64,000 bases of DNA, from assembly GCA_000310025.1 (NCBI GenBank), contig FN649748.1, forward strand, positions 2,886,319 through 2,950,318, written 5' to 3'. A model generated the notes under the pieces. It ran no database searches, was not told where the DNA came from, and worked only from the letters and a program-made list of their open reading frames with translations. The DNA comes from Ectocarpus siliculosus. Its lineage: Eukaryota; Sar; Phaeophyceae; Ectocarpales; Ectocarpaceae. The translations under genes and the position numbers were made by a program. This document shows positions 10 to 54,760 of this stretch, in pieces. Positions within the stretch are counted from its first letter, which is position 1. Each line of letters begins with the position of its first letter.

Positions 10-1204
10 TTGACAGGTGCAGGAGCTGAAGGCCGAGGAGCAGCAGCTATGTGCAGAGATTTTGCGCGAAGCTACGCACTTGGAAGAGTTGCAGCGTCGA
101 CTAGAAAAACTTACACGGGGGCTTGGAACATGTGGATAAAGTGGAGGGAACGAGTGCAGAAGAGCCCATGGATTGCGAAGGGGTCGGAGGAAGGGGAGAT
201 AGTGGAGGAGCTGGCGGAGTACATGGCTTACTGTCGTGCGTTCCTAGGAAATAGGGATTCGACGATAATGGGGAAGCTCGTGGTGGTAAATTTCTATCAT
301 CAACAGTTTCAGAACATGTCTTTGCCGTTGAGTAACCCGTGCATCAAAGGGGTAGCGCAAGGTATTAAGAGAGGGCACGTGGAGAAAGGTACACAAGCAA
401 GAGTGAGGAGACCTCTGACATGGGGAATGTTGAGTGCAATGCAGCAGAGTGTTGGCGGTGAAGGTGCAGGGGGAAGAGTGCTTTGGATCGGATTGGCCTT
501 GACATATCTGCTGATGTTGAGGGCGTCAGAGATGTTTGCGGAAAAGGATGGAAAAATCCACGAAGTGTACTGCCTGTGCAGGGGGGACGTGGCATTCTTC
601 GAGGGCGATAAGCAGTTGGAAGGACCGAGAGAGGTTAAGGGCAGATAAGATAGAAGTGCAGATGGGAGGCTCGGAGGGAGACCAAGGGAGGAAAGGAGCG
701 GTGATGGTCAGGGAGAGGGGGAGGGCGAATGGAGCGGTGGAATTGATGCTGGAACTATTCGGGATTTATGGAAGTGAAGGATTAAGTGCAACGGCACGTT
801 TGATGGTACACAGAAGTAAAGGGAAGTGGGAGGTATGGCAGAGAGGGAAGGCGACAGAACAAATGAGGAAGGGGATAAGAGCGGTATCAAAGATGTGGTC
901 GAAGGAAGGGAAAGGGGCAGGGACGAAGCTAAAACCGGAAGAGTTTGCGTTACATTCGGGAAGGATAGGTGGGGCGACGAGGCTGGCCGCGAAAGGGGTA
1001 CCGGATGCTGTGATAAAGAAGGAAGGGAGGTGGTCGCCGAACGCTTTCATGGCATACGTGAGGGCGAATACGCAAGACCCAGCATGGGTGTCGGCGGTGT
1101 TGGAAGAAGGGGAAGGGGTATTGGAGAGACAGCAGGGGCAAGGGACGGAACGGGGAAGAAATCGGGAAGAGGGATCCAGAAGTAAGAAGAACAAGACTTC
1201 GTGA
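10..1204 (+). mobile_element. Tyrosine-recombinase region of a Crypton- or DIRS/Ngaro-type element (fossil)
   Basis: The region encodes a tyrosine recombinase (site-specific DNA strand exchange). An N-terminal helical core-binding part is followed by a catalytic part that carries the family signature: an arginine in LRASE, the HxxR box as HSGR, a following tryptophan in GRWSP and a candidate nucleophilic tyrosine in FMAYVR. The coding sequence is spread over two frames, so this copy looks broken about once, unless a small intron is present. The window starts inside or just upstream of the element, so reverse transcriptase parts that would decide between a DIRS/Ngaro retroelement and a Crypton cannot be seen. 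It is purine-rich on the plus strand, unlike the flanking DNA. The family call is firm; the subtype is open. Confidence 0.75.
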
Positions 1205-1207
1205 TGG

Positions 1208-2103
1208 GGAGGTTTGTGTCCAAGCTGGGCGACCAGCGGAATGTGGTCAGCCTGGTTCTTATTACTTAAAGCGTGTGGATTCCTTATTAGGCTCAAGGGC
1301 CGGGAGGGAGGGGGAGAGTTCCACCTCCAAGACCCGGCCTTTGCGCGGCGACACAATAATTAAAATGTCATTTTTCGGGAAGTGAGAGACAAAAGTGGAA
1401 GGTTGTGTTGACAATCTGGTGTTTTGTCAGAACGGTCAGAAAGATCAAAGGGGGCACCGTAGGTAAGAGATAATTGATAAGTACGTATGTAGACTATAAC
1501 GAAAAGAAAAGAAAAAGAAAGAGATGCACCTTGCTCACAGCAGAAGAAACATCTGAACGAAAGAGCAAGACAACAAGCAAACAAGAGGATGAGTAGGAGA
1601 GAGACAGAGGAGGAAGAAGAAGGAAGCGAGTGTACGGAAGGGAGGAGACAGACAGAGAAAGAGAGCAAGAGCATCGTCGGTTCGTTTGTTTGTTTTTTGA
1701 AGCCGAGGTAGGCGTGTCTCGGGCGGGAGCTAGACATGATGGGTAGCGTGTTCTAGGCTGAAGCAGGGCATGGGAAGACAAATGATGGGGTCAAGGTAAG
1801 CGTGTCTCTGGCTGCTGAGCAGCAGGGCACGGAACGACCGGTTAAGCCGAGGTAATCATGTTGTTGGCGAGAGCGAGACATGGAAAGACCAAAAGGTTGA
1901 GGAAGCATGTTCTAGGCTTGAGCAGGTCATGGAAAGGGCTGAATACTGCGAGGAATATATGGTCAAGGTAAGCGTGCCTCTGGCCAAAGGGCAGGACATG
2001 GAACGACCGTTAAGCCGAGGTAGGCGTGCTCGGGCGAAAGCGAAGGCTTGAGCAGAGCATGGAAAGGCATGGAGGTTTGAGGTGGAGGTTTGTGTCCAAG
2101 CTG
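1208..2103. repeat. Short direct repeats and degenerate tandem repeats downstream of the recombinase
   Basis: An exact 20-bp sequence occurs at 1208-1227, four bases after the recombinase stop, and again at 2084-2103. Between them, 1700-2080 holds degenerate long-period repeats: the 12-mer TAAGCCGAGGTA or a close form recurs near 1700, 1843 and 2012, and blocks containing GTTCTAGGCT and GGTCAAGGTAAGCGTG recur once each. No gene is supported here. The arrangement could be terminal or split repeats of the recombinase element, or an unrelated minisatellite. Confidence 0.6.
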
Positions 2104-3686: not shown

Positions 3687-4247
3687 GGTCGCCCCGGTGG
3701 TCTACCGTATATGACACAAGATAACACACCCCCTTGGCCGATTTTCAAAGCTCGATTTCTCAACAGCAGGAAGAGTCACAGCGCCGAAAACGGCGGCGTT
3801 GGAACCGTCTCGTCGAGAGCTGTTCGAAAACGTATTGTTTCATTTATGCATCCTCTTCGTGGAGTAATCGAGCTTTGAAAATCGGTCCAGGGGGTGTTTT
3901 ATCTTGTGTCATATACGGTAGTTGGTAGCCTCGTAACCTTCTAGAGGTCAGGTCAGGGGTTCGAATCCCGGCGTAGGCGAGCTTTTCTTGCAAAGTGAGT
4001 TTTTCTCTCGCTTCCGCTCCTGGCCAGGTGGATAGCGCTAGTTCGTGTGTACACAGAGGGAAGAGAGTGCTGGTACACAGAGGGAAGAGAGTGCTGAACT
4101 CTTCTCGCATTAAAAATTGAAGGCGAAGTACCGCAGGAGGGGAGGGCAGAGAGGGGCTCTTCTGTGTGACCACGGGTTGGAATAAACGGCACTAGTGCTG
4201 TGAGCGCTGATTTGAAGTGAAGAACAAAAAAAAAAAAAAAAAAAAAA
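3687..4247 (+). mobile_element. tRNA-derived SINE, copy 2, interrupted by a MITE
   Basis: Same family as the copy at 2601-2915, opposite orientation, ending in a 22-base A run (4226-4247). The head is split within the A box by a 214-bp MITE at 3705-3918. Removing the MITE and one TA restores TGGTCTAGTTGG, so the SINE was inserted first. The body carries a private tandem duplication of about 24 bp near 4050-4100. This copy cannot use its internal promoter while the A box is split. Confidence 0.93.
3705..3918. mobile_element. MITE with about 52-bp terminal inverted repeats and TA target duplication
   Basis: Left end CCGTATATGACACAAGATAA and right end are inverted repeats of each other over about 52 bp with only a few mismatches. 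The flanks are TA at 3703-3704 and TA at 3919-3920, and the undisturbed SINE sequence has a single TA there. TA duplication with such ends fits Tc1/mariner-IS630 type transposition. There is no coding capacity, so it is a non-autonomous copy moved by a transposase elsewhere. A diverged relative lies at about 26316-26544. Confidence 0.92.
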
Positions 4248-4527: not shown

Positions 4528-6218
4528 AAATGCGAAGATACACATACATCGAGGAGACGGATTCTGTGCAAATGCACTTGGGATTCGCTTGCTCCCTTCT
4601 GTCCGATGACAACAAGCAGAGGCTACAAGCAGAGGCTGCCAAGCGAGTAAGAGGGGCTGGGGTTTACACGTCATACATTGCATGTATTATGCATTAGTCC
4701 ACTTGCTGCATGGGCATAGATCGATAGGTTGCACGGCAAAACATAACGAACGTTGGACCTGCAGTAGGGACTCACTCACCTACCTACTGCTGTAGAGGCT
4801 GATCACGGCGCTTTATAGTCTTCACAATAGTCCATATGTCCATATTACTACTGCTGTTCTTCGTGAAAAAAGCCCGTCGTATGTAGAGTTTTTGTCAACC
4901 TAGCCATACACAAACATGAAGCAGGGGGCGTGAACCTCGCTGGACGCCAACTCCAACTATAGGCAGATCTACCTTCAGCATCTCTCGCATAGCCACGCAC
5001 CTTGCATGGCGGTTTCTTTCCGCCGGAAACACGGAGACACGAAGAAGGTCGAAGCCCGCGGCTGGAGAAGATGATGCAGCAGGCAGCAGCTCTGCCTCTT
5101 CCAGATTCCGAACAGAGAGACCGAGCGAGGGACAGAAAACCCTGACGATCGTCAGAAAAAGAAACCCTGACGGGGATCCCGCGCTGAATATGACAAGGCC
5201 ACCACGGTGGCAAAGCTTGGTGGATGATAGCCCTGAGAGCACCTACTACCTCAGGACCCCTGTCGTGCAATGTGACGGGCAGCGTTTTTGTTGCAGTTCG
5301 AGATTTGATTGGTTTTGCATTGGTTGAACAGGTACGAAAAAATAAAAAAATGATTGATGAGTGATTATGTGTACGATTTCCCAGACAGCATACATATAGG
5401 GACATCTCCCCTTGCGGATAACAGGCTCAACAAAACCTATGGTAGCTTTTAATTTTTTCCATTTCGTGCCCACGTGTGTCTTGTGATCCACAGTAACGGC
5501 GAATATGACAAGCATATTCGTACAACAATCATAACAACAATCAAACATCATCATGGATACCATACATATATGTAGCCGCCGATCAGTATTTATTTACAGT
5601 GAGCGCCGAGTCAAAGACCATTCATTTGGGTTTCGCCTCTCTTTTGATCGATAACTCTTGCCTCCCCCACGACATGATGCTTTCCGGCTTTCAACCATCA
5701 AGGTAAGTATATTATTTGTAGAAATGTCATGGCAGGACGCACTACTAGAAAATAGTGAAGAATTTTTTCTACACATAATATCTTCAGTGATTTTTAAAAA
5801 TTTTGAACCTGCTGTATCCGTGTACAAAACGAAGTTTCTGCGTTAGCACTACTGTAATACGGTTGGCACACGAGAAACACAGCATCCCACTGATGTACAG
5901 CAGTCTTCCGACCTCCCATCGATATGCAATTGCACTCCATGGCCTAAGTTCGCGAAGGAAATAAATGTAGGCGCTAGCGTGTGATACGCTCAACAATCAC
6001 AACGGCCATCAACACTTGGAAGTACATCCAACCCGTAAGTGTTCGATGGCGAGCAAAGGTCGTCTTCCATCAACTTCCATGGAAGCTGGCCAAGAATATA
6101 TTGCCTCATGGAACAAAAGGCAAATATAAAAAGTCGCCAGACGCGCATGCCACACTGCCGTCATGAAGGATGAAGGGGCACGCAGAGGAGACAATAATAC
6201 ACGTATGTTTGCCGACAG
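4528..6218. other. Mostly non-coding, no gene firmly supported
   Basis: A 185-codon minus frame at 4848-5405 is rich in Cys, Ser and Arg and has no family motif; it is probably chance. Donor-like GTAAGT sites occur at about 5703 and 6032, so short upstream exons of the 6219-7606 candidate could lie here. One TTCCATGGAA palindrome occurs near 6076, matching the unit of the cluster at 20397-20919. Confidence 0.35.
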
Positions 6219-7606
6219 GAAATGTGCCAGAAATGGCCGATGGTGACAACAGCAAACGTCGACAACAAGATGAAGGAGCACTTCAGCCCCGACCTCTTCA
6301 GCCCCTTGGACATCACGGATGACCGCCGTCTGCTCAGGAAGCTGCTGCATGATTGCAAGTGAGTGCCCCGATTATGCTGTGACCGTTTGTCTTACCGGCT
6401 GCAAACCCTAAACCTTTGTAGTCCCACCCGGGAACCCCAGTCTCGTCGGCCACGTATAGCACTAACTTTATTTATCGCAGTGGCTGCCCCATTGCATCGG
6501 CCGGCACCCACGCAGGGAGTGCTTGCGATTTGGCTATTGCTATCCCCCCCATGCACCCTTGCGTGTGCTGTGTCGGATGATGACGTCGACGGTTCGGCGG
6601 TGCCGAGACCCTGCTTAACTTTGGTACAGTAGTCTCGATGAATATATCCCAAACAGAAGGATCGACCGACTGTCGGCGGGACTCGCCAAGAGGGTAGGGT
6701 GTTGTTGGGGTTCCTACAGGCTACGCCTGGTTGCACCGCCCTGCACAAGATGTAGACACAATATCTGCACTGTTCGGAGTTGATAGGGTGGGTAGGGCGT
6801 GCGGTGCGGTCAATGTTCTCGAGGCGTGAACGACCACCGTCCGTAGGTGTAGGTTTTGGATACTCCGGCGTGGAGCGGACGAACCAGTCTTGAGACCGCG
6901 GAGATCTCGAGTATTCCGGAGACGCATGTACTCCGTAGTATGCCTAGGAATTGCAAGTGTATCGTCTTGTGAGTTGTTGCCTGGATTCAGCGTGTCGCGC
7001 GACAGGTTGGAGGGAGGGCCATGAAAGGCCATGGCTGGTATAGAAGGAGCTTTGGGTTGCGATGTATAGGGTGAAGGCGTGGTGAATGCCGTCCGTAGCG
7101 ATCGATTTCCGCGATTAAGTATATTGTCACTAGAACGCGTACAGCCCAAATCATACAAAAAGCACCGTGCAGAATTATGCCACGTAACCGTTCACAGTGT
7201 AATCGGCGTACATCGTCACAAGCACCGCCTTCCTCCACCCACGGCCGTGCGGAGAGGTTGGCAACATGAGTGTCTACACACACAGGATACCCGATGACAC
7301 TCCCGTGTTCTACCCGACGAGGGGCTTTCCCCTACCCCAATACGCCGCCCAGTTATACGGCGATGCCATCGGGAATTACCCATTAGACCCAGCCTCCTGT
7401 TGCAGTCTCATCCTCGACCCCCCCCCCCCACTGGTGATTCTGTTCGCTAACGGCCTTGGTCAACCCGAATTGATGCAGGGTCCGCTACGAGCGCGAGGTA
7501 GAACAACAGCAAGCCAACAACATGGACCCAACGGTGGAGTCTCAAGACCCCACCAGCAGCACCCCAGACGTGGAGGTGGTGGAGGATCCACCAACTATGT
7601 CGTCCG
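6219..7606 (+). CDS. Candidate two-exon gene, unknown function
   Basis: Exon A (6219-6358) follows an acceptor CCGACAG, contains the stretch EHFSPDLFSPLDITDDRRLL and ends at GTGAGT. Exon B (7479-7606) follows GATGCAG, begins VRYEREVEQQQANNMDPTVE and ends at GTGAGG. The phases agree: two bases from exon A and one from exon B make the joining lysine codon. Exon B is acidic and polar (PDVEVVEDPP). Neither a start codon nor a terminal exon is certain; exon A has in-frame ATGs at 6222, 6240 and 6270. A competing frame begins with an ATG at 7266 (MSVYTHRIPDD). No family is recognised. Confidence 0.35.
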
Positions 7607-8667: not shown

Positions 8668-10430
8668 CCATCAGGTATAATGAGGTCTCATGGAGTGTCA
8701 TTAGGCGGCATGAGGTGTCGTAAGGTCTCATGAGGTGTGTCATGAGCGTTAATGAGCGCTCATGAGCACTAATAAGCTGTGATGAACGCTCACGAGCGAT
8801 CATGAGTGGTGATGAGCGGAGATGAGCCGTCATGAGCGCTCACGACCACTGGCGAGCGCAAGCGGTCATGAGCGGTCATGACAGCTCATGAGCGCCCATG
8901 AGCTGTGACGAGCTGCCATGAGCGGTCATGAGCGGTAATGAGACGTGATGAGCGGGCATGAGCGCTCATGGGCGCTCGTGAGTGCTCATGAGCTGTCATG
9001 AGCGCTGCTGAGCACTTGGGAGCGGTCATGGGTGGTTATGAGTTGTGGTGAGCTGTCATGAGCGTTGATGAACGCTCGTGAGCACTTATCAGCTCATATG
9101 AGCGTTTCTGAGCGCTTGTGAGCGCTCATAAGCTGGTATGGGTGGTGATGAACGCTCACGACCTGTGATAAGCGGTCACGAGCGGTCATGAGCAGTAATG
9201 AGCGCTCATGAGCGGTCATGAACGGTCATGGGTGGTTATGAGCCGTGGTGAGCTGTCATTAGCGGTAATGAGCGGTCGCATGAGTTAGTATGACCGTTGA
9301 TGAGCGCTCATGACTTGTGATAAGCGGTGATGAGCGTTTTTGAGCGGTCATGGGCGGTGATGAGCGCTTATGACCTGTGATAAGCGGTCACGAGCGGCCA
9401 TGAGTGCTCAATAGCGTGTCTGAGCGCTCATGAGCGGTCATGGGCGGTTATGAGTCAGGGTGAGCTGTCATGAGCGGCAGTGAGCGCTCGCGAGCTGGTA
9501 TGAGCGCTCATGGGCGCTCATGAGCGCTCGTGAGAGTCAGGGTGAGCTGTCATGAGCGGCAGTGAGCGCTCGCGAGCTGGTATGAGCGGTAATGAGCGCT
9601 CGTGAGCTGTCACGAGCGCTCATGAGCGGTCATGAGCGCTCGCGATCTGTCATGAGTGCCCATAAGCGGTCGTGAGGGGTGGTCAGCTGTCATGAGTGCC
9701 CATGATCGGTCATGGGCGCTCGTGAGCTGTAATGAGTACCCGTGAGCGCCCACGAGCGGTCACAAGCTGTCATGACCGCGAATGAGCTGTTATGGGCGGT
9801 CATGAGCGGCCATGAGTTGTCATGACCGTTCATGAACGGTCATGACAATGTGAGCTGTCATGAGCGGTCATGAGTTGTCATGACCGTTTATGAGCCGTGA
9901 TGAGCGCTCATGACCGGTGATGAGCAGTCATGAGCGTTCGTGGGAAACCATTTTTTTTTTTTTTTGGTTCTTCACTTCAAATCAGCGCTCACAGCACTAG
10001 TGCCGTTTATTCCAACCCGTGGTCACACAGAAGAGCCTCTCTCTACCCTCCCCTCCTGCGGTACTTCGCCTTCAATTTTTAATGCGAGAAGAGTTCAGCA
10101 CTATCTTCCCTCTGTGTACACACGAACTAGCGCTATCCACTTGGCCAGGAGCGGAAGCGAGAGAAAAACTCACTTTGCAAGAAAAGCTCGCCTACGCCGG
10201 GATTCGAACCCCTGACCTGACCTCTAGAAGGTTACGAGGCTACCAACTAGACCACCGGGGCGACCATGAGCGGTGTTGAGTTGTCGTGAGCGGTCATGAG
10301 TTGTCATGAGCGCCCATCAGCGCTCAGGGGCCGTGATGAGTTGTCCTGAACGCCCATGAGTGTGATGATGAAGTGTGGTGAGCGTTCATTAGCGCCCATG
10401 AGCGATGTTGAGCTGTCATGAGGTTAGGGC
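8668..10430. repeat. Decamer minisatellite (consensus GAGCGGTCAT), with SINE insertion
   Basis: About 1.4 kb of degenerate 10-bp units (GAGCGGTCAT, GAGCGCTCAT, GAGCTGTCAT and similar) run on both sides of a SINE at 9951-10265. Many unit junctions form the perfect 12-bp palindrome ATGAGCGCTCAT. Units vary mostly at positions 5-6 and by single substitutions, while the 10-bp spacing is largely kept. A local duplicate of about 60 bp sits near 9460-9600. No gene lies in it; the preceding 7830-8667 also shows none. Confidence 0.92.
9951..10265 (-). mobile_element. tRNA-derived SINE, copy 3, inside the decamer array
   Basis: Full-length copy of the same SINE family with intact A box (10243-10254, reverse complement) and B box (10200-10210, reverse complement), and a 15-base tail (T run at 9951-9965). 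Array units resume directly on both sides, so it inserted into an existing minisatellite. It is close in sequence to the copy at 2601-2915, which suggests fairly recent activity of the family. Confidence 0.93.
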
Positions 10431-10885
10431 ATATACCCATCCATATATCCCCGGGATTTCTGCCGTTGCCTCGGTGCCTTGGCGTCTCGATCTCGCATGG
10501 TGTGCATCACCACTAGCGCTGCTGGCGCTGTGAATTAGTGGAGAGCCCTGAGAGATGGCATGACACCCCGGTCATCTTAGCAATCTTAGGGTTAGAAACC
10601 CCACGGAGCCGCAACAATAGGCCGCCAGTCGCCCGTGTGGCCTATTGGTCCAGCCAAACGTAACCCTACAACAAAAAGAAGACCAAGGCTACGGGTAGAT
10701 TATTTGCGACACTATGTTCCCTGTTGTGCAGTGCTATGTAGAGGAGGCGGCAACGGCAAGTTTGCAAGGCAGGTGTGGTTCAATGTGAAAGCTGGTCAAT
10801 GACATGTTCCAACCGAATTTGACGAATACTACTACTACTACTACTACTACTACTATATGTAGACTATATTCCCCAATTCCCCAAT
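10431..10885. repeat. Non-coding stretch with a TAC microsatellite
   Basis: No gene is visible between the decamer array and the direct-repeat pair. An uninterrupted TAC/ACT trinucleotide run of about nine copies lies at 10827-10855. Confidence 0.6.
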
Positions 10886-18070: not shown

Positions 18071-20396
18071 CAGGGGCAAATGCGGAGGTGGCGTTTTAAT
18101 CTTGGCCACGGGCGGGCACATAGCAGAACTATCACACGAGGAAACCGCTCTCCTCTTGAATATCCATAATTTCGAGGGGAAAATACGCCTTGAACGAGTA
18201 GGACCCATGGGATTAGCGGCGACCTCAAACACACAAATTGCGAGGATACGATTTCAGTCGCTGGACGCCGTAAATGGTCGAAGGTTCATGAGTTGAGACT
18301 CGAAACCCATGTCAATACTCCTGCAAGTTCTGCAACAACATCTTCGTAGAGAGGGTTGCCAAAACATGCACCCATTAGGGCTATACGTTCCAGACGGAAT
18401 TCACCTACAGGACTCAGACGTTCAAAGGGCTGACCATTTCCTTCCACAGGTAATGTGATCCCGGTGGCCGCGCACGACAACGCTGATACCGCAATGAGAT
18501 AAAAAATGCAGAGGTGGGTGCTCACAAAGAAAGACCGTGGTGCAAAGCAGTTCGAAGACCATTTCGCCAATATGGAGGCACCCCCATGTAGAGCTAAGGG
18601 GGGCTACCGCGTACGTAGGGATCTACTGGAATTCCTAGCAACAAGTCTGCTTGATTTGGAGAATACGGCAACCTCTATGTATTGCGAGCCCCCGTGCCAT
18701 AACCACGAAGAAACTGTTGCGTATCATATAGCACCGCGCAAAGGAGTGTGATAAACGTCGTTACAAAATGCCGCAGAACAACAAAAAAAAAACATCTGCG
18801 GCTTGGTTGATGCATATACGCGTGCTGGCTCCTGTTATGACATGCAGAGGGGGGGCGGGTTTAGTGCAGGGGTGTGTCCAGAGATTTTACATGCACTAGC
18901 GGGCACCTGCACTACTGAGAAGAGTGCCTCAATAGTGCAGGACCTGTACTATTGAGGGCGCTGGTCCAGATATTGTACCTGCACTTACCGGGCACCTGCA
19001 CTATTCAACCTGCACTTTACCGCCCCCCCCTCTGTACTACACTTCTCCCTGTTGTCTTCTCCCTGTTGTATTTATTGACGCTTTACTTCTTATGTCTATC
19101 GTCGTCGGCGCGGTCGTTTTGTCCACGTGAAACACATTAATTAAGCATTTAGTCGCATAAACCCCGGACCGAATGTAGACGGTCGACTCCTCCACGACCA
19201 AGAGGATGACAGAATCAGATGATGGGTGAATTATTCCCGAAACCTCTCGACAGGAGCACTGTTCCAACGCCACAATTTTCGGCACCGCTGTTATTGCTAC
19301 AGACTATGATGATACAGTTTGTGCATGAATATAAGGTTCGGTCCAGGTGTGCGTGGTATCTTAAGTCACCGGTAAATGTAAGTCAACAACAGTTCTACCG
19401 CAGTACCGTCGACGGGCCGTGTCCGGCGGACCACGGTGGTACCGTTGTATACGGGCCATTTTAAGTCCGGTGGAACTTGGCGGAACACGAAAAAATGAAA
19501 GAAATATCAAAACAATTAAGGAATAATTTATAAATGAAAGACACAAACAAGCAGGGGAGAGAGGGTGTGCCACGGTGCACAGAGAAAAAATGCAGTAGGA
19601 CGACGATGCTCGAACGTTCATCAAGCGATGTCTACATGTGTTTCTGTGTACTACGGGTTGAAGGGCTTTGCTTCACGGTCTGCTTGTTGGGCAGGACAGG
19701 TGCAGAAGTGTTGGGACCATCGTGGTCATCCGAGCGGAGTATCTTGCTGATGGTTATAATTAATTACAGTATGCTATGCATGCATGCATGTGGATACGCA
19801 CACAGCAATGGTATATAACTGCGGAGATGGGGAATGCGGGACCTACGGCCCTCGGTTCCCTCTCTCCTTGTTGGGTGTCGCTCTCTTTTTCTCTCTCTGC
19901 CGACACCTCCTCCTTGCCAAGTCTCAAACGAAGACGTTCCCAGCCCCCCCGTATTTGGTCAATACTACATACCACGACCTTGGTCTCCTTCCAAGGAGGG
20001 AGTCCTGTGTCCAGAATGCTTACCACGAGACTCTCAACGGGTTCTTGTAGGTTATAGGCTGCAGTTCCCAACAAGGTCACCTTGTGCCCAAGATATTCTG
20101 CTCACGTCCATCCACGAAGCACACTAGTAATGGACAGCAGTAGTAGATCGCTACGGGGACTAGCACCTAAACTACAGTAGTAGTTACATTGCCATCGATA
20201 GACTATTATACACATAGCATTTATTTGACTACAACAATGTGAAGACAACAACAACTGCAGTACGTGCGCGCCTATCATGATCGATAGGTGCCGACACTTT
20301 TCAACCCGAACTATGTACGAATATGAAACTACACCTTCGCAACACTTTTCAACCCTCACTATATACTTCCACGGAAGTTCGAATAATGGCTTCGGA
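18071..20396. other. Intergenic with short degenerate repeats, no gene supported
   Basis: Around 18860-19030 the motif CCTGCACTA and near matches recur several times on the plus strand. The frame at 18286-18570 (minus) has one hydrophobic stretch but no family motif or clear exon borders. The other open frames are short and unlike known proteins. Confidence 0.4.
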
Positions 20397-20919
20397 ATTC
20401 CATGGAAGTCGCTGAATTCCACGGAAGGAAGTTGACCTCTGGCAGATTCAATGACTTCCATGGAAGTGCAACCAATCAATGTCTTCCATGGAAGTTGACA
20501 AGGTTCCATGGAAGTTGCGTGGGAATCGAGACGAACGCTTCCATGGAAGTGAGTTCCATGGAAGTTGGTTCTCTTCCATGGAAGTCGCTACCCAATCGTT
20601 CTGTTTACTTCCAACTTCCATGGAAGTAAATGTGCTTCCGTAAGTCCGACCGGACTTCCGTGGAAGTTTCAGGCGAGACTTCCATGGAAGCGACCACCGC
20701 TGATTCCATGGAAGCTCCATCGACTTCCATGGAAGTACAAGTAGCGTGGAAGTATGGTGGCGGATTCGCACGACCACTTACTTCCATGCGGCTTCCATGG
20801 AAGTTAGTAACTTCCATGGAAGTAGATGGAGCTTCCATGGAATCTTCCCCCGCTCACATGGGCTTCCATGGAAGTAACAATACACTTCCATGGAAGTAGA
20901 AATCCACTTCCATGGAAGC
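20397..20919. repeat. Cluster of 17 TTCCATGGAA palindromes with unlike spacers
   Basis: Seventeen exact copies of the 10-bp palindrome TTCCATGGAA, most extended to ACTTCCATGGAAGT or close to it, plus variants such as TTCCACGGAA and TTCCGTGGAA, some just upstream from about 20365. Centre-to-centre spacing ranges from about 15 to 70 bp and the spacers do not match each other, so this is not a plain tandem repeat. Open frames on both strands here are created by the ATG within the palindrome and are not genes. Confidence 0.93.
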
Positions 20920-21864
20920 GTGTACCATATGGACAATAACCATGTTATATATATACTCACAGGATGGTCGTCGTGACGTGATACATTTCTTGTTATATAA
21001 TATTAGTATGGAAAAAAATAAAAAAAGATGGCTCGATTTTTGTATTTCTACAGCAGCAGCAGTATGGACCAGACGCCGACTGTACATGGAAGTCGTACGA
21101 GTATCGACTCAGTTGTGCTGTCACAGCATCTTCCACGCACTTCTGCCAGTGCTGGTTTGTCGATTAGAGTCTTATAGGTCGAGATACAGCAGTGGGATTC
21201 TCGGGTTGTGGAGGCAAAAGTGAACCAGCGCAAAAATTTTCATGCATACATAGCTCGATTACTGCTGCTGTGCTTTTGCAACAGCAGTATGGACTAGACG
21301 CCGAACGACGTCCGCGTAATACCGCAACGACCTAACTTGATGGGATACTTCCTGCCACGGCGAACCATGGTATAGTGCGATGCAAACATCCGTTCGTGTG
21401 TCACGCGGCTGCCACATGTGTCGACGACAGGTACACGTAGAGTCTCGCCATGTTGTCGTTACCGCGCAGGAGGACCCCTCGGAGATCTTCCACATGGTGC
21501 TACAACGACGACAGCAGTACTACTGTACATAGATAGATGTCGTAGGAGAGTGGAGTTGTGCTGTCACGGCATCTTCCACGCACTCTCCTACCGGTGCTTG
21601 CGTCGATTGGAGTCTTATAGGCCGAAATACAAGAGTGGGTTGGGTTCCGGGTTGTGGAAGCAAACCTGCCTGCAACAACAGAGAAGGCGGTGTTCTATTT
21701 TTTCTAGACTAGAGTGTCCCGCTCACCTTTTTTTTTTTGCGACATGTGGTTGCATATATATTTCTTTGCCACTGCCGAAAAAGACCGCTGGATCTTTACG
21801 CAGTCCACCTTTCGCATTTATTTATCATTTTACACCGAACGACGCAGGACGGGTCGACCTTCAT

Positions 21865-21945: not shown

Positions 21946-22683
21946 CTTCACATGAAAAACCGTTCCGATCTCTCTCTACCCAGTAGCTTCAGATGTCTGC
22001 TTTTAATAATACTACCTTCAAAGTTATGCATGCAAAATTTCCACCCACCAGTTGTGGGTGCCCAACAATCAGCAATGCACCTCGAGCGAGTATCAACTCT
22101 AGACACCCAACAGCCAAGAGGAAACAAAAGAAAAAGCATGGCGAAAACATTATGTGCGAAAATCAAACGCTTGCCAAACAAACTTGAACACGACATCACC
22201 TCTATTCATCACACGCACAACCAAGTGGTCGGACATGAAATCAAGCACACCTTGCCATTACGTATTACAAGTCCCAAAACCAAGTTCACACAGCATAAAT
22301 TGTCCGCAGGAGGTATGGCCTCTGTTCGCACTAATGTAGTAGCTCTAATGCTGAAACTGCGGGAAACGCCAAACCTACGTAAGGAGGCAAGCTGACTCTA
22401 ATAACGTGGATGACTGCTACTCATTCGGCAGAGGCAGCGCTATCGTCGGCGACAAAGCCGAATTCTTGAAGGCTCATGTTGCACACCGATGTGGATCTCA
22501 GGAGCTGAGACACAGGCGCTGTTGGTGTGGTGTGTGGCTGGCAGGGACTGGTGTGTGTGTGGTGTGTGGTTGTGATGGCAGTGGGGGGCGACAGGAGTAG
22601 GCGCGTAGGCGCCGGAGCGAAAAAAGGGGGTACAGTAGACAGCTGGGAAACTGACCCCCCACCCTGTAAAAAGGGGGCCAAAA

Positions 22684-22813
22684 TATCGAATATCGAACAC
22701 CGATATCGATACCGATACCTATTCGTATCGACAAATATCGGCGTGGAAACCGGCAATACCGATACTGCGTATCGTCGATATATATACATCAGTCTTGTAT
22801 CGATATTCGATAC
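22684..22813. repeat. Cluster of CGATA/TATCG palindromic units
   Basis: Dense, irregular repeats of ATCGATA, CGATATCG and TATCGA, many self-complementary (for example CCGATATCGATACCGATACC). The period is irregular and spacers are very short. No gene. Confidence 0.8.
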
Positions 22814-23711
22814 CCAATATCCAACACTGGAATGAATATTCGTATGCGCTCAGCAGTCGAATTTGGAAAGTACATAATTAGTTCAATTGTTGAAGAAGCT
22901 GTATTCTGCGGTTTGTCGTACGTCAGTGCAAGTAATCACTTGTGCGTGCAAGTACAATACTTGATGTGCATACGTGGCACAAGTTCGAGAGCATGGTGTT
23001 CAAGTCATCTTTCCAGAAACAAACGTATCGCAGCTTACCAGTACTACCGTATTCTGAACACGTGTGATTGGTCGACGTTGTCGGATAGGTGTGATTCCAT
23101 GATTTCGAGGATGAGCGCGTACTCGCCCCATCCTCTCACTCTGCTTCTTTGGGGGTTCTCCAACCCTCTGCCTATTTGGGGTTTCTCAACTTCTCTACTT
23201 CTCCGGGGTTCACTACCCCTCTGTTTCTCTACATTCTTTCTGGTCTCCACTGATCAAGTAACTACATTTCCACCAAACCATCTTCTCTTCTCCTTCGGAC
23301 CTTCCTGCGTACGTACTCAGAGCCAAGCCTTTCGTACTAAAGGGTCCAGCGGCACAACAAGTAGTGAGTTGGCACGTCGCGCTGCAGCCGTACAGGACAC
23401 GTACAGGCTTACACGCAGCACTTGAGTTTTGCCTTTGACCTGTGACTATCAGATTGCACAATTGGGTGCTCTGCTGATGTACATCAGTGGTCATTGCTGC
23501 ATACGCACGTTCTACTTGCGCGACACACTGCGGAGAGAGCACGCACCAACTCAAGAGTAAATTAGGACTACCCTTTTTGACGACAACCAACAACACCTCT
23601 TCGAGAGCCGATACGGGTCGTCAACACCCACAAGCCTACATCCCCAAGAGGCCTCGGGGGCGTGACCAGGGATGATGACCTGATTCGAGGACCATGCCGA
23701 ACAAAATCCGC
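22814..23711. other. No gene recognised
   Basis: A 197-codon plus frame (22832-23425) has mixed composition with no motif or exon signals that I can support. A local GGGGTTTCTC/TTCTCC repetition lies around 23145-23215. Confidence 0.35.
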
Positions 23712-25478: not shown

Positions 25479-25778
25479 ACCCACACGCTCACAACTACAT
25501 CCTTCGCTCACAGGAGAAGAGACATTTTCTACAATACAATCGCGTCTTCACCACACGGAGTAATCGAGAGACAGATATTTTCAATCATATACACTATCGT
25601 TATTCGTGCCCATGGGTACCCATGGGCATGCCCATGGGTACCCATGGGCACGAATAACGATAGTGTATATGAGTGAAAATATCTGTCTCTCGATTACTCC
25701 GTGTGGTGAAGACGCGATTGTATTGTAGAAAATGTCTCTTCTCCTGTGAGCGAAGGATGTAGTTGTGAGCGTGTGGGT
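25479..25778. repeat. 300-bp near-perfect palindrome ending at an assembly gap
   Basis: Two arms of 150 bp are reverse complements with one mismatch noticed, centred between 25628 and 25629 in GGGCATGCCC. The centre is itself made of CCCATGGG/GGTACC units. The right arm runs straight into the N gap, so its true end is unknown. The near identity points to a very young inverted duplication, or to an assembly artefact in which one arm was joined to its own complement. Confidence 0.9.
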
Positions 25779-25878
25779 NNNNNNNNNNNNNNNNNNNNNN
25801 NNNNNNNNNNNNNNNNNNNNNNNNNNNNNNNNNNNNNNNNNNNNNNNNNNNNNNNNNNNNNNNNNNNNNNNNNNNNNN
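25779..25878. other. Assembly gap (100 N)
   Basis: Exactly 100 unknown bases, the usual placeholder for a gap of unknown size. It lies next to palindromic sequence that is hard to assemble. Confidence 0.99.
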
Positions 25879-25950
25879 GCCGTGGGTACCCATGGGTACC
25901 CACGCCCCATGGGTACCCATGGGTACCCACGGCCACCCACGGCCCACGGG
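25879..25950. repeat. GGGTACCCATGGGTACCC palindromic repeats after the gap
   Basis: Several overlapping ACCCATGGGT and GGTACC units continue the cluster that forms the centre of the 25479-25778 palindrome. The gap therefore probably lies inside one larger array. Confidence 0.8.
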
Positions 25951-26315
25951 GGACCGTAATGGCTTTCACCACCACGGGGATCACAACGGGTACCAAGATT
26001 AAGCGTACTCTATAACATCGATTAAGCGGGATCGACGAAGGCGCGGCCGCAGCGAGGTGGTACACCCAAGGTTCCGTGGGAGGCTCACAGCACAGCAGTT
26101 AGTGAGTCCAGCATTATTCCAGCTCGGCGCAAGAATGTAAAGAAAGAAAGGAAGGTATCTAAAGCTTGGTGTGGGCGTGGAGGAAAGCGCGTCAGTGTGG
26201 CCTCACCCAGATCCACGGCGCTAGGCTCACCCAGATCCACGGCGCGACGCTGAGGGCGTTGTCGCATCTCCCGTGTTTCGTACAGTGCACACGCACGCCG
26301 ATCGTCACGGAACCG

Positions 26316-47434: not shown

Positions 47435-50400
47435 TAGGCCGACAATGGTTAGTGATGTGCTCGCCCTCTTTCTAGGGTCGACAAGTTTGACTACAGAGCG
47501 TGTGTACTACCTTCAGCAAGTGGCATTTATTTGATGTAGGGTTGACCATTGGTTAGGTCTGGACCGAAACAAACCGTTCGCTCTCATTCAAGATTGGCCA
47601 ATCCCCTGTTAATATGGATGAATCAGGGCAAAACACACCGCCTCGAAGCTATTACTGGTTCAGGTTCTCGAGCACTTTGGGAATGATGTCTGAGAGCTGT
47701 TTGGCCAATTTTCCTCAAGCTTGCATCTCCTTTACCTCATCCTTACCGATGCGATTCACCTATCACGCGTTCTTGTTGAGGTATTGCGTGTGAAGGGTGG
47801 TGTTCATGCCGATTCCGGCGTAGACCACGCGCCGTTCAATTAACGACGTCGATAAGGCTGCCAACTGCTCGATGATCGGACACGATGTTCTCTTCAGTGG
47901 TGGCCACTGGACCCGATGTGGGAATCACCCGCTTGCAATTCTGACCATTGGGAGGTGTCAGCGCCCCCTTGGTCCTCATTTCAAACCAAAGCAGCCTATA
48001 TTTCTTCTACCAAATTTGTGCTACCCTGCTTGTCCTACGAGTTCCAAGAGGTCCGATGGCCATGCATCTAATACAGGACTGACTGCCGACGCCAGCGCAA
48101 CTATCGTTCTGGACATTTACCCAGAGTAGTAAGAAACCTAGTTTGTTGCTCAGTCGGCAACAAGTTGTCAACATCTCTGAACACACACCAGCTTGTGTGA
48201 GCTTGTCGGTCCACGCCACTGCTACACCGAGTCGGCAGCCCTCCCTGGGTGCCACCGCGAGCACTCACAAACAGTGATATTCTTGAAAAGAACGGTTTCA
48301 GGATCCAACAGGCGAACCGATTGGAACACATGCACTGGCGCTTTCATGTAGAGCCTCAACAGCTATGACTCACATGGACGGTCGCATGTACGCGGGGGAT
48401 GCGGCTGTTTTTACCGTGTTAGCGTTGACTCGGTAGCTGCGACGCATGCCCCTCGCAAGGATACCCCCCAAAACAATGGCATTTCACAACGAGTGGCGAG
48501 AGCAGACCGAAAACACCACTTTATTTCGTGAAGTCTTCCGATTCGTGAACACAGGCATGAATCCCACGCTGGTACATGAATCGGTTGTCAGCTAGTACCC
48601 CACCCGTGCATACCTCCTTTGGGTACCGGATTCATTTTCTAGGGCTCGCTCGGCTTTGAACGACATTTTGTAACTATGTGTCGCTCTCCCACTCGCACGT
48701 GCGCCCTGAGTGGAGCCCTCAGATTCGAAAGTATGTGTTTGGGTGCGGTAGCTCGTCAGAGGCCGAAAGAGAGAGAAGGCTGACTCAAGACCTTGGGTGC
48801 TTAGAGAGTGAGACACATGCGGTAGGCCACACCATCGCCATCCAGCATGTCCGTCAACACGTACCATCCGCGTATCCCCCGGAGGCCCCGTAGACGCTAT
48901 ACTCTGCCGAGTACCCAAAACAGTATGCCAGCGTTTTCCCCGCAATACTGAGGTCTAGTTCTTGATCATGCAGTATGCGCGGTCGATACGTTGCCTCCGA
49001 CGCCCGGCACGATACTTTCTATTTCTTCATTGTTTCTATTTTCCCGTGTAGAGAGAACCCATTGATACCCCTTGTTGATCGAAGTTCGATTGGAAATCTC
49101 AATCGAAACACCCCCTGGGCGTTCTCTCTAGCTTTGTTCCCTCTGTAACGTTTTGTACGTATGTCGTGGTGGCCGGTACCCCTCTTACGAGTGCAGTACA
49201 CCATAGCTGGACCACACTCGTTTCATCCACGGACAGTCCGTGTGCATTTTTTGGAGTGAGGAGAATGGAAGGGTGACACGGTACAATCTCCGAACCCAGG
49301 GTTTTCTAGCTTGGTATCGCTTTTGCCACCGGCTGCCGTTTCATCCCCCTCATGTTTTTTATTGCCCTCGCTTGGGTAAAACTCGTATGCGGTGGTCAGC
49401 CTCACACAAGAAGAGCCGTCCAACCGCCAACGGACGGCCTCCGAGCCGGGAAGACGAGAGCAAAGCGGGGGCAGTGAGGCGACCGCAGCACCGCAAACGG
49501 TAAGTTCCGCTGAAACGTTGTCGTTGTTGTAGTCTCTCCCCACGTCAACATTATGATGGTACAGTTTTCGTGTGCATACCGTGCTTTGTTTGTGTAGCGC
49601 CACTTGCACAGGACGTTGAATGATGACAAATGTTGTAAAGTCCGGCGCTAGGCTCGGCAGGGTAGCGGCTGGAAAGCACGTCAGCAATACACGGCTGGCG
49701 GCATCGACCCAACGGCGTTGAGAGTATATCGACCACGGTTGAAACTCTAGTGAATCCATGCCAGTGTTTATTGGCGTTGTTTTAGGCGGCCACACAACTC
49801 GTTTTGAACCATCGGGGTTTGGGTGTGCTAGGCGAAACCCCGAGGTGGATACATGCATTTTTGGTGAATTTTTATTGACTATTTGTAGCGGCCAAGTCAC
49901 TCACAAATGCAGTGGCCTCGCAACTTTCGCATTGCTGAATGTGGGCAGCAAAATTGTGAGGACCGTCTTTCATTCATGAACCTTGGTCCCGATGGTGAGC
50001 GTGCTCCTTGACCCTACACGAAAACGTGGGTGAAGATACCGCGAACTGACCCGTCCGAGGTAGACAGCAGTGATCGGTCTACCTGATGCCGGACTCGTGG
50101 CCGTGTCTCGTGTCGCACAGCCATGTTGGTTCCATTCGGATTTCCCATAGGTGTATTGGCGCGAACCAAAAGCCATGCATGGTGCGATTGTATTGGAGAA
50201 GGGGGGCAGGGTCTCGCATAACCCGATGAAACCTGTTTTCTCGGCAACACATGACGTGCGCTGGGACGCGGTGGTCCGAAATTGTTGATCAGCACCTTTC
50301 AGGGAAGGTGCCATCGAGGAGTCGACTTCAAGACAGATGGAAAACAACAACAGACAGCCAAACGTTTCGTCATTGTCGCTCTCCTGTGAGAAGCAAGAAC

Positions 50401-54136: not shown

Positions 54137-54760
54137 GGGGCGGGCGGGGGGGGGGGGGGGGGGGGGGGGGTTAAGGGGCCCCCCCCGGCCCCGGGGTTTC
54201 CCCGCCCACTTGCCCAAAACCCGGGGGGGTTTAAACTTTCCCATTTTTTACGCGCCCCCCCCCTTTGCCCGGCCGCCCCTTTGGCCCCCCCCCAAGGTTT
54301 CCCCCCCCCCCCTTTGTGGCCCCCCCGGGCCCCCCCGTTTTTTTTTTTTCCCCCTTAACCCCCCCCCCCCCCCGAGCCCGGGGGGGTAACCCTGGGCCTT
54401 ATCGTTTTCTTTTCCGGGTTCCCCCAACCCCCCGGGGGCCCCCCCCCGGCCCCTCAAACCCCCCCCGGGGGCCCCCGGGCCCCCGGGGGGGAAACCAAAA
54501 CCCCTCCTCTTTTNNNNNNNNNNNNNNNNNNNNNNNNNNNNNNNNNNNNNNNNNNNNNNNNNNNNNNNNNNNNNNNNNNNNNNNNNNNNNNNNNNNNNNN
54601 NNNNNNNNNNNNNGGGAAGCCCGAGCACCCCGACCATGGAAAACGACCGCGACGCAGGAGAAAGGGAGCCTCGCGGACAACCGCCCGGAAGACGGGGCCC
54701 CCAGAAAAACAGGAACGAATCCGAGGAAAGCAAGGAGGGGGGGGGGGGGGGGGGGGGGGG
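54137..54760. other. Low-quality sequence with homopolymer runs around a 100-N gap
   Basis: Runs of up to about 22 G or 14 C, and almost pure GC in 54137-54513, stop at an N gap (54514-54613). A further run of about 23 G lies near 54738-54760. The pattern is that of unreliable read ends. The Gly/Pro-rich open frames here are artefacts. The gap falls just past the last visible exon of the alpha/beta hydrolase gene. Confidence 0.85.

Follow-up and report, generated by a model that had tools for sequence, protein, structure and literature searches.

Palindrome array in the Ectocarpus siliculosus genome as the probable decayed end of a DNA transposon tentatively placed among KDZ relatives

Structure of the array and its surroundings

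The window, the 64-kb stretch of Ectocarpus siliculosus DNA analysed here, carries an array of short palindromes at 20365..20939 on the plus strand. By homology to other arrays in the genome, it corresponds to the subterminal palindrome array of a DNA transposon at the end here named B, with the outer end to the right. The exact palindrome TTCCATGGAA occurs 17 times at 20398..20917 and 18 times in the full 64 kb, in agreement with the preliminary description, which had reported 17 copies in about 520 bp; with up to two mismatches to CTTCCATGGAAG, 20 sites lie in 20365-20939. Comparison of the count with chance, which that description had set as a check, indicated a clear excess: TTCCATGGAA appeared 0.05 times on average and at most once in 100 dinucleotide shuffles of the window, and 1815 times genome-wide (189.5 Mb, 492 contigs) vs 82 times for the reversed word. 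The genome also gave at least 150 matches to the EsV-1-7 domain (150 of 880 candidates scored), those listed all exceeding the cut-off and 14 control genomes contributing none; this fits a brown alga, since PMC12477816 describes a proliferation of the domain in that group. The spacers had been described as unrelated, and this holds inside the window array, for which Tandem Repeats Finder reported no more than 2.5-2.6 copies of units of 19 and 22 bp, but not across loci, where the spacers are common to other arrays at 70-86% identity. The imperfect forms of the palindrome had been thought to be often still symmetric. However, TTCCGTGGAA and TTCCACGGAA are asymmetric and are reverse complements of each other. 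Furthermore, 24 array stretches or loci contain 605 sites with up to two mismatches to CTTCCATGGAAG; 111 of the sites carry two mismatches and only two of these are symmetric, where about 3 in 100 are expected if both changes are random; symmetric co-change of half-sites was thus not found in these arrays.

Homology to the other arrays begins at 20365 and ends at 20939. The near-terminal motif of the B end, CCATATGGACAATAA, is retained at 20925..20939 (plus strand), and the terminal 12 bp, which read TGTATATTACCC in five other copies, are missing. The terminus is replaced by an unrelated multicopy repeat starting at 20941 (20941..21420, plus strand), of which 14 fetched copies begin within 9 bases of one another and 11 of the 14 match to 21420, the end compared, with 86.5-91.4% identity. 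The element interior that adjoins the inner border of the B array lies far to the left, at 6037..6200 (plus strand), now in the opposite orientation and with 92.7% identity to positions 3713-3876 of the C76 element. This piece holds the palindrome at 6075-6084 that had been noted as a single far copy near 6076; the copy is present, but it is not independent, as the fragment around it comes from a transposon of the same kind. A further interior fragment of this kind, likewise inverted, at 10419..10842 (plus strand) is 95.5% identical to L057 3585-4002 over 10419-10835 and 87% identical to the C76 element at 6450-6836 over its full length. The breakpoints at 6037 and 20364 both lie at the edge of one palindrome, and C76 reads through both of them with a 4-bp overlap at the palindrome edge. 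This arrangement reflects either an apparent inversion of 14.3 kb or a local fold-back of the assembly; the only runs of N in the window are at 25779-25878 and 54514-54613. No A end, the opposite end of the element, with an array was seen in the 64-kb window; an A-type start with one mismatch at 22416 (minus strand) has no adjoining palindromes. With its terminus lost, no A end seen and its interior inverted, the window copy is very probably a dead, decayed fragment that would be immobile.

Other repeats were also noted in the window. At 25479-25778, a 150-nt arm is followed directly by its 99% inverted copy beside the 100-N gap at 25779-25878. This probably represents an assembly fold-back where a second element with palindrome arrays ends, one that carries CCCATGGG and GGGTACCC. 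The sequence at 25880-26301 is 92% like the end of a giant element nested in C12, and the repeat at 48736-48923 is 89% like sequence adjoining the giant element in C73 (L061 2349-2536).

Element ends, target duplications and conservation of the palindromes

When window 20300-21020 was compared with the genome, ten other array loci were found at 70-86% identity. Two of them, C76 (80%) and C12:2110282 (75%), are homologous to the full span of 20365-20939, and the other eight (C117, C94, C1, C11, C12:1762447, C268, C42 and C7) to part of it (70-86%). In several copies, two arrays face each other just inside both ends of an element. Read inward, the outer ends are CAGTCCTCTACATTACTGTCCATATG at the A end and GGGTAATATACATTATTGTCCATATGG at the B end; with up to three mismatches, these words occur at seven and six places in the genome, respectively, and their reversed words at none, in a search that misses ends with indels such as the A ends of C1, C76 and C16. 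The two termini have TACATTAYTGTCCATATG in common, in inverted orientation, and differ in the outermost 8 bp, forming imperfect inverted terminal repeats.

Flanking repeats of at least 8 bp (8-9 bp) were found in 8 of 11 elements of 0.9-24.8 kb, whose borders were set by visual inspection without masking the flanks, and in 1 of 110 mismatched flank pairs used as a control, that one being of 10 bp. Exactly at the borders lie the 8-mers GACCAAAT of the 24.8-kb C12 element, ACACAGCA of the 6.8-kb C76 element, TCAATGGC of L067 and CCTTGGCG of L071; the 8-mer GAGTGAAA lies at the borders of the 1.8-kb C12 element (L053), whose B end lacks 8 bp of the usual length. The 9-bp repeats are at the border in L007, shifted by 1 bp in L069 and shifted by 3 bp in L066, and no flanking duplication was found for L018, L063 and L064. 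The 9-bp word of L007 also occurs beside L064. The better preserved relatives thus show short imperfect terminal repeats, 8-bp target site duplications and arrays just inside each end; two defined ends with imperfect inverted repeats, together with a target duplication, characterize Class II DNA transposons. The 24.8-kb C12 element has a 4-base N gap inside and contains, as visual inspection of its frames suggests, a second giant element and one resembling Copia. At L057 (~1170-1230, minus strand), Pfam gave a short match to the Mago-binding domain (E 1.5e-9); it may stem from a piece of a host gene lying within the C16 element or next to it.

The palindromes are better conserved between copies than the sequence that separates them. 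Nine of 12 B-end loci had enough coverage to be aligned over the outer ~300 bp; deviations from the majority numbered 25 in 871 positions of the 10-bp cores (2.9%) and 247 in 1750 spacer positions (14.1%). Across nine aligned A ends (12 rows, three of them, L054, L020 and the window, dropped as B ends), the corresponding values were 13 of 518 (2.5%) and 76 of 1100 (6.9%). When the core mask was shifted circularly, only the true position gave a value as low, among 299 shifts for the B ends and 186 for the A ends. The rows of these alignments are not all independent, since C42 and C268 look closely related. Conservation reaches beyond the core to about RCTTCCATGGAAGY, the consensus to which about 18-40 palindromes and near-palindromes per end conform with up to two mismatches. 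The ladder of site spacings (e.g. 21, 39, 18, 20, 24 and 35) also recurs between copies; the dominant spacings, looked at for helical phasing, were 20-22, 24-25, 15 and 35 bp among copies that are related. Because spacers and spacing ladder are common to arrays at different loci, the arrays travel as blocks. The lower divergence of the palindromes, which change 2.8 times (A end) to 4.9 times (B end) less than the spacers, implies that they are under selection while the spacers drift, in line with the earlier suggestion of selection on a site for a symmetric, dimeric protein. Gene conversion among the palindromes could in principle also lead to such conservation.

Link to KDZ-like genes and alternative readings

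Pfam scans of the interiors of the window's own family, each in six frames (C76 at L052 3800-7001 and L056 100-2501, L057 1-3302 and L005 3700-6530), detected no transposase, and the C76, L057 and L005 copies are treated here as non-autonomous. A KDZ-like gene in the C12 element was considered as the transposase of this family and set aside, as it appears to belong to the nested second giant element: the C73 copy of that element is 99% identical over 5.5 kb, and no TTCC(AT/AC/GT)GGAA occurs in the 8 kb fetched around it. On C9 (L062), 14 exact palindromes, the terminus TACACTATTTGACAAAT and a KDZ-like gene 3 kb inward were found together. One frame of the L062 gene and the KDZ-like frame carried by the nested giant element share 44% identity. 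The best Pfam match of its 403-aa N-terminal frame is CxC5, defined in Pfam as a 'cysteine cluster associated with KDZ transposases', at E 0.0027, below the curated cut-off; the sole match of the nested element's gene (C73 copy, L061) is CxC6 at E 0.022, also below cut-off. Since the unrelated families Dak1 (E 0.014) and Rieske (E 0.07) gave chance matches in the same kind of scan of interiors without recognizable genes, the CxC6 match by itself is at chance level and the CxC5 match is modest. That the top matches of both genes are KDZ-linked clusters is the stronger point than either E-value. Both genes also contain the motif YDxAC, which we take to be typical of KDZ transposases. The KDZ domain PF18758 itself had no match in the genome, in 14 control genomes or in the scanned frames of the KDZ-like genes.

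The association of arrays with KDZ-like frames recurs at other loci. Of 14 array loci of the L062 type (the top of a longer match list, 73-100% identity, with two C25 rows resembling one split array counted once), five have a convergent KDZ-like frame on the opposite strand, 3.1-4.7 kb further in, where chance would give 0.03; 75 of 81 matches to KDZ-like frames were used, six second pieces being left out, and C361, C404 and C400 may represent repeated assembly of a single locus. At the other nine loci, some of them near contig ends, no KDZ-like frame in this convergent arrangement lies within 10 kb; C59 does carry a frame of the other subfamily, 9 kb inward but on the same strand. Ten short loci (~1 kb) that have palindromes in each half were fetched: six show exact (T/C)ACACTATTTGAC on at least one side, three have one or a few terminal changes, and L072 contains only the inner part. 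A terminus of the (T/C)ACACTATTTGAC type is also found on L062 and the C74 copy, and in a changed form on C455. The B terminus of the window family agrees with the terminus of these short elements at 14 of 18 bases. Considering these similarities, the window element is placed among KDZ relatives tentatively and with reserve.

The same evidence may be read in other ways. The termini CAGTCCTC.../...TATTACCC could belong to hAT or another superfamily with 8-bp duplications, the KDZ-like genes then coming from a different family with a similar palindrome. An 8-bp duplication is not specific to KDZ elements, as hAT elements also have 8 bp, and the CAG start of the A end fits hAT as well. Furthermore, the scanned interiors of the window's own family hold no KDZ gene, and the CxC matches of the KDZ-like genes are weak. 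However, no hAT domain was detected in the frames scanned (C76, the first 3.3 kb of L057, and L005), arrays of the same palindrome stand in one arrangement with KDZ-like frames at five loci, and the terminus TACACTATTTGAC is common to a KDZ-linked copy and the ~1-kb elements. An assignment to hAT or a similar superfamily is thus unlikely, even though subterminal repeats are present in Tol2, a hAT element, as passages of PMC8151067 describe.

Readings that dispense with a transposon fare far worse. A symmetric site, dense clustering and site conservation would suit a host regulatory cluster, in which a dimeric host factor controls a nearby gene, but homologous arrays occur at ten other loci, several of them in elements with termini and target duplications, and another repeat adjoins the window copy. 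Heat-shock elements, moreover, follow TTCnnGAA, which differs from TTCnnnnGAA here. This reading is highly improbable and largely refuted. Least probable of all is the self-spread of a 10-bp palindromic unit, which the preliminary description had offered as its alternative to selection, or a plain satellite expansion. In at least one sister array (C12), tandem duplication has openly enlarged the array in units of 55 and 70 bp, so that the earlier exclusion of slippage and unequal crossing-over fails in part. For the window array, nevertheless, self-spread and satellite expansion are refuted by the homologous spacers, as comparison between loci points to an array inherited with its spacers and site ladder as a block, in a transposon with defined ends.

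Proposed role of the palindromes and comparison with known systems

Considering these results, we propose, with a probability of roughly three in four, that the array is the decayed end of a non-autonomous DNA transposon, tentatively of the KDZ kind, with palindromes serving as protein docking sites. In this view, the palindromes would be bound by dimers of a protein that the element encodes, for which a KDZ-type transposase with a cysteine-cluster domain or an accessory protein is a candidate. Such a dimeric protein would coat both ends and pair them, and the paired ends may then undergo cut-and-paste excision and 8-bp staggered insertion. Copies lacking a transposase would be moved in trans. 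Repeated sites may raise affinity and tolerate the loss of single sites, which fits the arrays with several decayed sites. The arrays are thus a candidate recognition site for KDZ transposases, with the ~1-kb copies as natural minimal substrates, and transposon ends and their debris, rather than host regulation, would explain at least part of the 22-fold genome-wide excess of TTCCATGGAA.

Palindrome arrays of other sequence were found in two further families. In the second giant element, the end (c12 22300-23325) contains 20 copies of CCCATGGG and 13 of GGGTACCC, and 36 palindromic 8-mers vs a mean of 4.3 in mononucleotide shuffles. The third family, with the terminus CAGTCATCTACGTT, is located at L007:3099-4907 and L001:1423 and has arrays of other CATG-centred palindromes; L007 contains 18 copies of TCCATGGA and 11 of TTCATGAA, and 53 palindromic 8-mers vs a mean of 7.4. 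Each family seems to have its own palindrome, though no rule can be drawn from three families. It is conceivable, though on balance doubtful, that KDZ-type transposons mark both ends with arrays of perfect palindromes built on family-specific CATG-centred words, as a co-changing recognition code. If so, the dimeric element protein and its palindrome would change together, keeping families from moving each other. The nested giant element also contains a tyrosine-recombinase-like frame recognized by eye (L059:4680-5951, minus strand), which matches the N-terminal part of Cre weakly (E 0.03), and a frame with FNIP repeats (L059:4036-4599, minus strand; Pfam E 4.5e-21).

In En/Spm (TnpA sites) and Ac (AAACGG sites), subterminal motifs are bound by a protein of the element, and these plant motifs are directional. 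In contrast, each unit here is a palindrome, with about 18-40 sites per end at up to two mismatches. Repeated motifs inside the ends are a likeness to both elements and to Tol2, for the latter according to PMC8151067. Palindrome arrays at KDZ-type ends, and the way in which KDZ transposases find their ends, are undescribed in the literature searched: no paper joining KDZ, transposon and subterminal was found in the open literature, Zisupton and subterminal co-occurred only as single mentions, judged by title, and among the matches listed for the word TTCCATGGAA none concerned transposons by title. For brown alga, KDZ and transposon, only PMC12477816 was found, the main text of which contains neither 'palindrom' nor 'subterminal'; the palindrome families may already be catalogued in its figures or supplements, as KDZ or DNA/Unknown. 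The 8-bp target duplication found in the elements here is the value given for Zisupton, and likewise for Dileera, both of the KDZ group, in PMC12730594; in contrast to these, the transposase similarity found here is confined to the cysteine clusters that accompany KDZ transposases and stays below cut-off. For Ectocarpus, giant DNA transposons of the KDZ kind (among them KDZ-1_Ec32) have already been published; as PMC12477816 describes them, they are generally >10 kb and up to 30.3 kb long, comparable with the 24.8 kb of the C12 element, and show nested insertions and many copies presumed to have moved in trans, as the elements described here appear to do.
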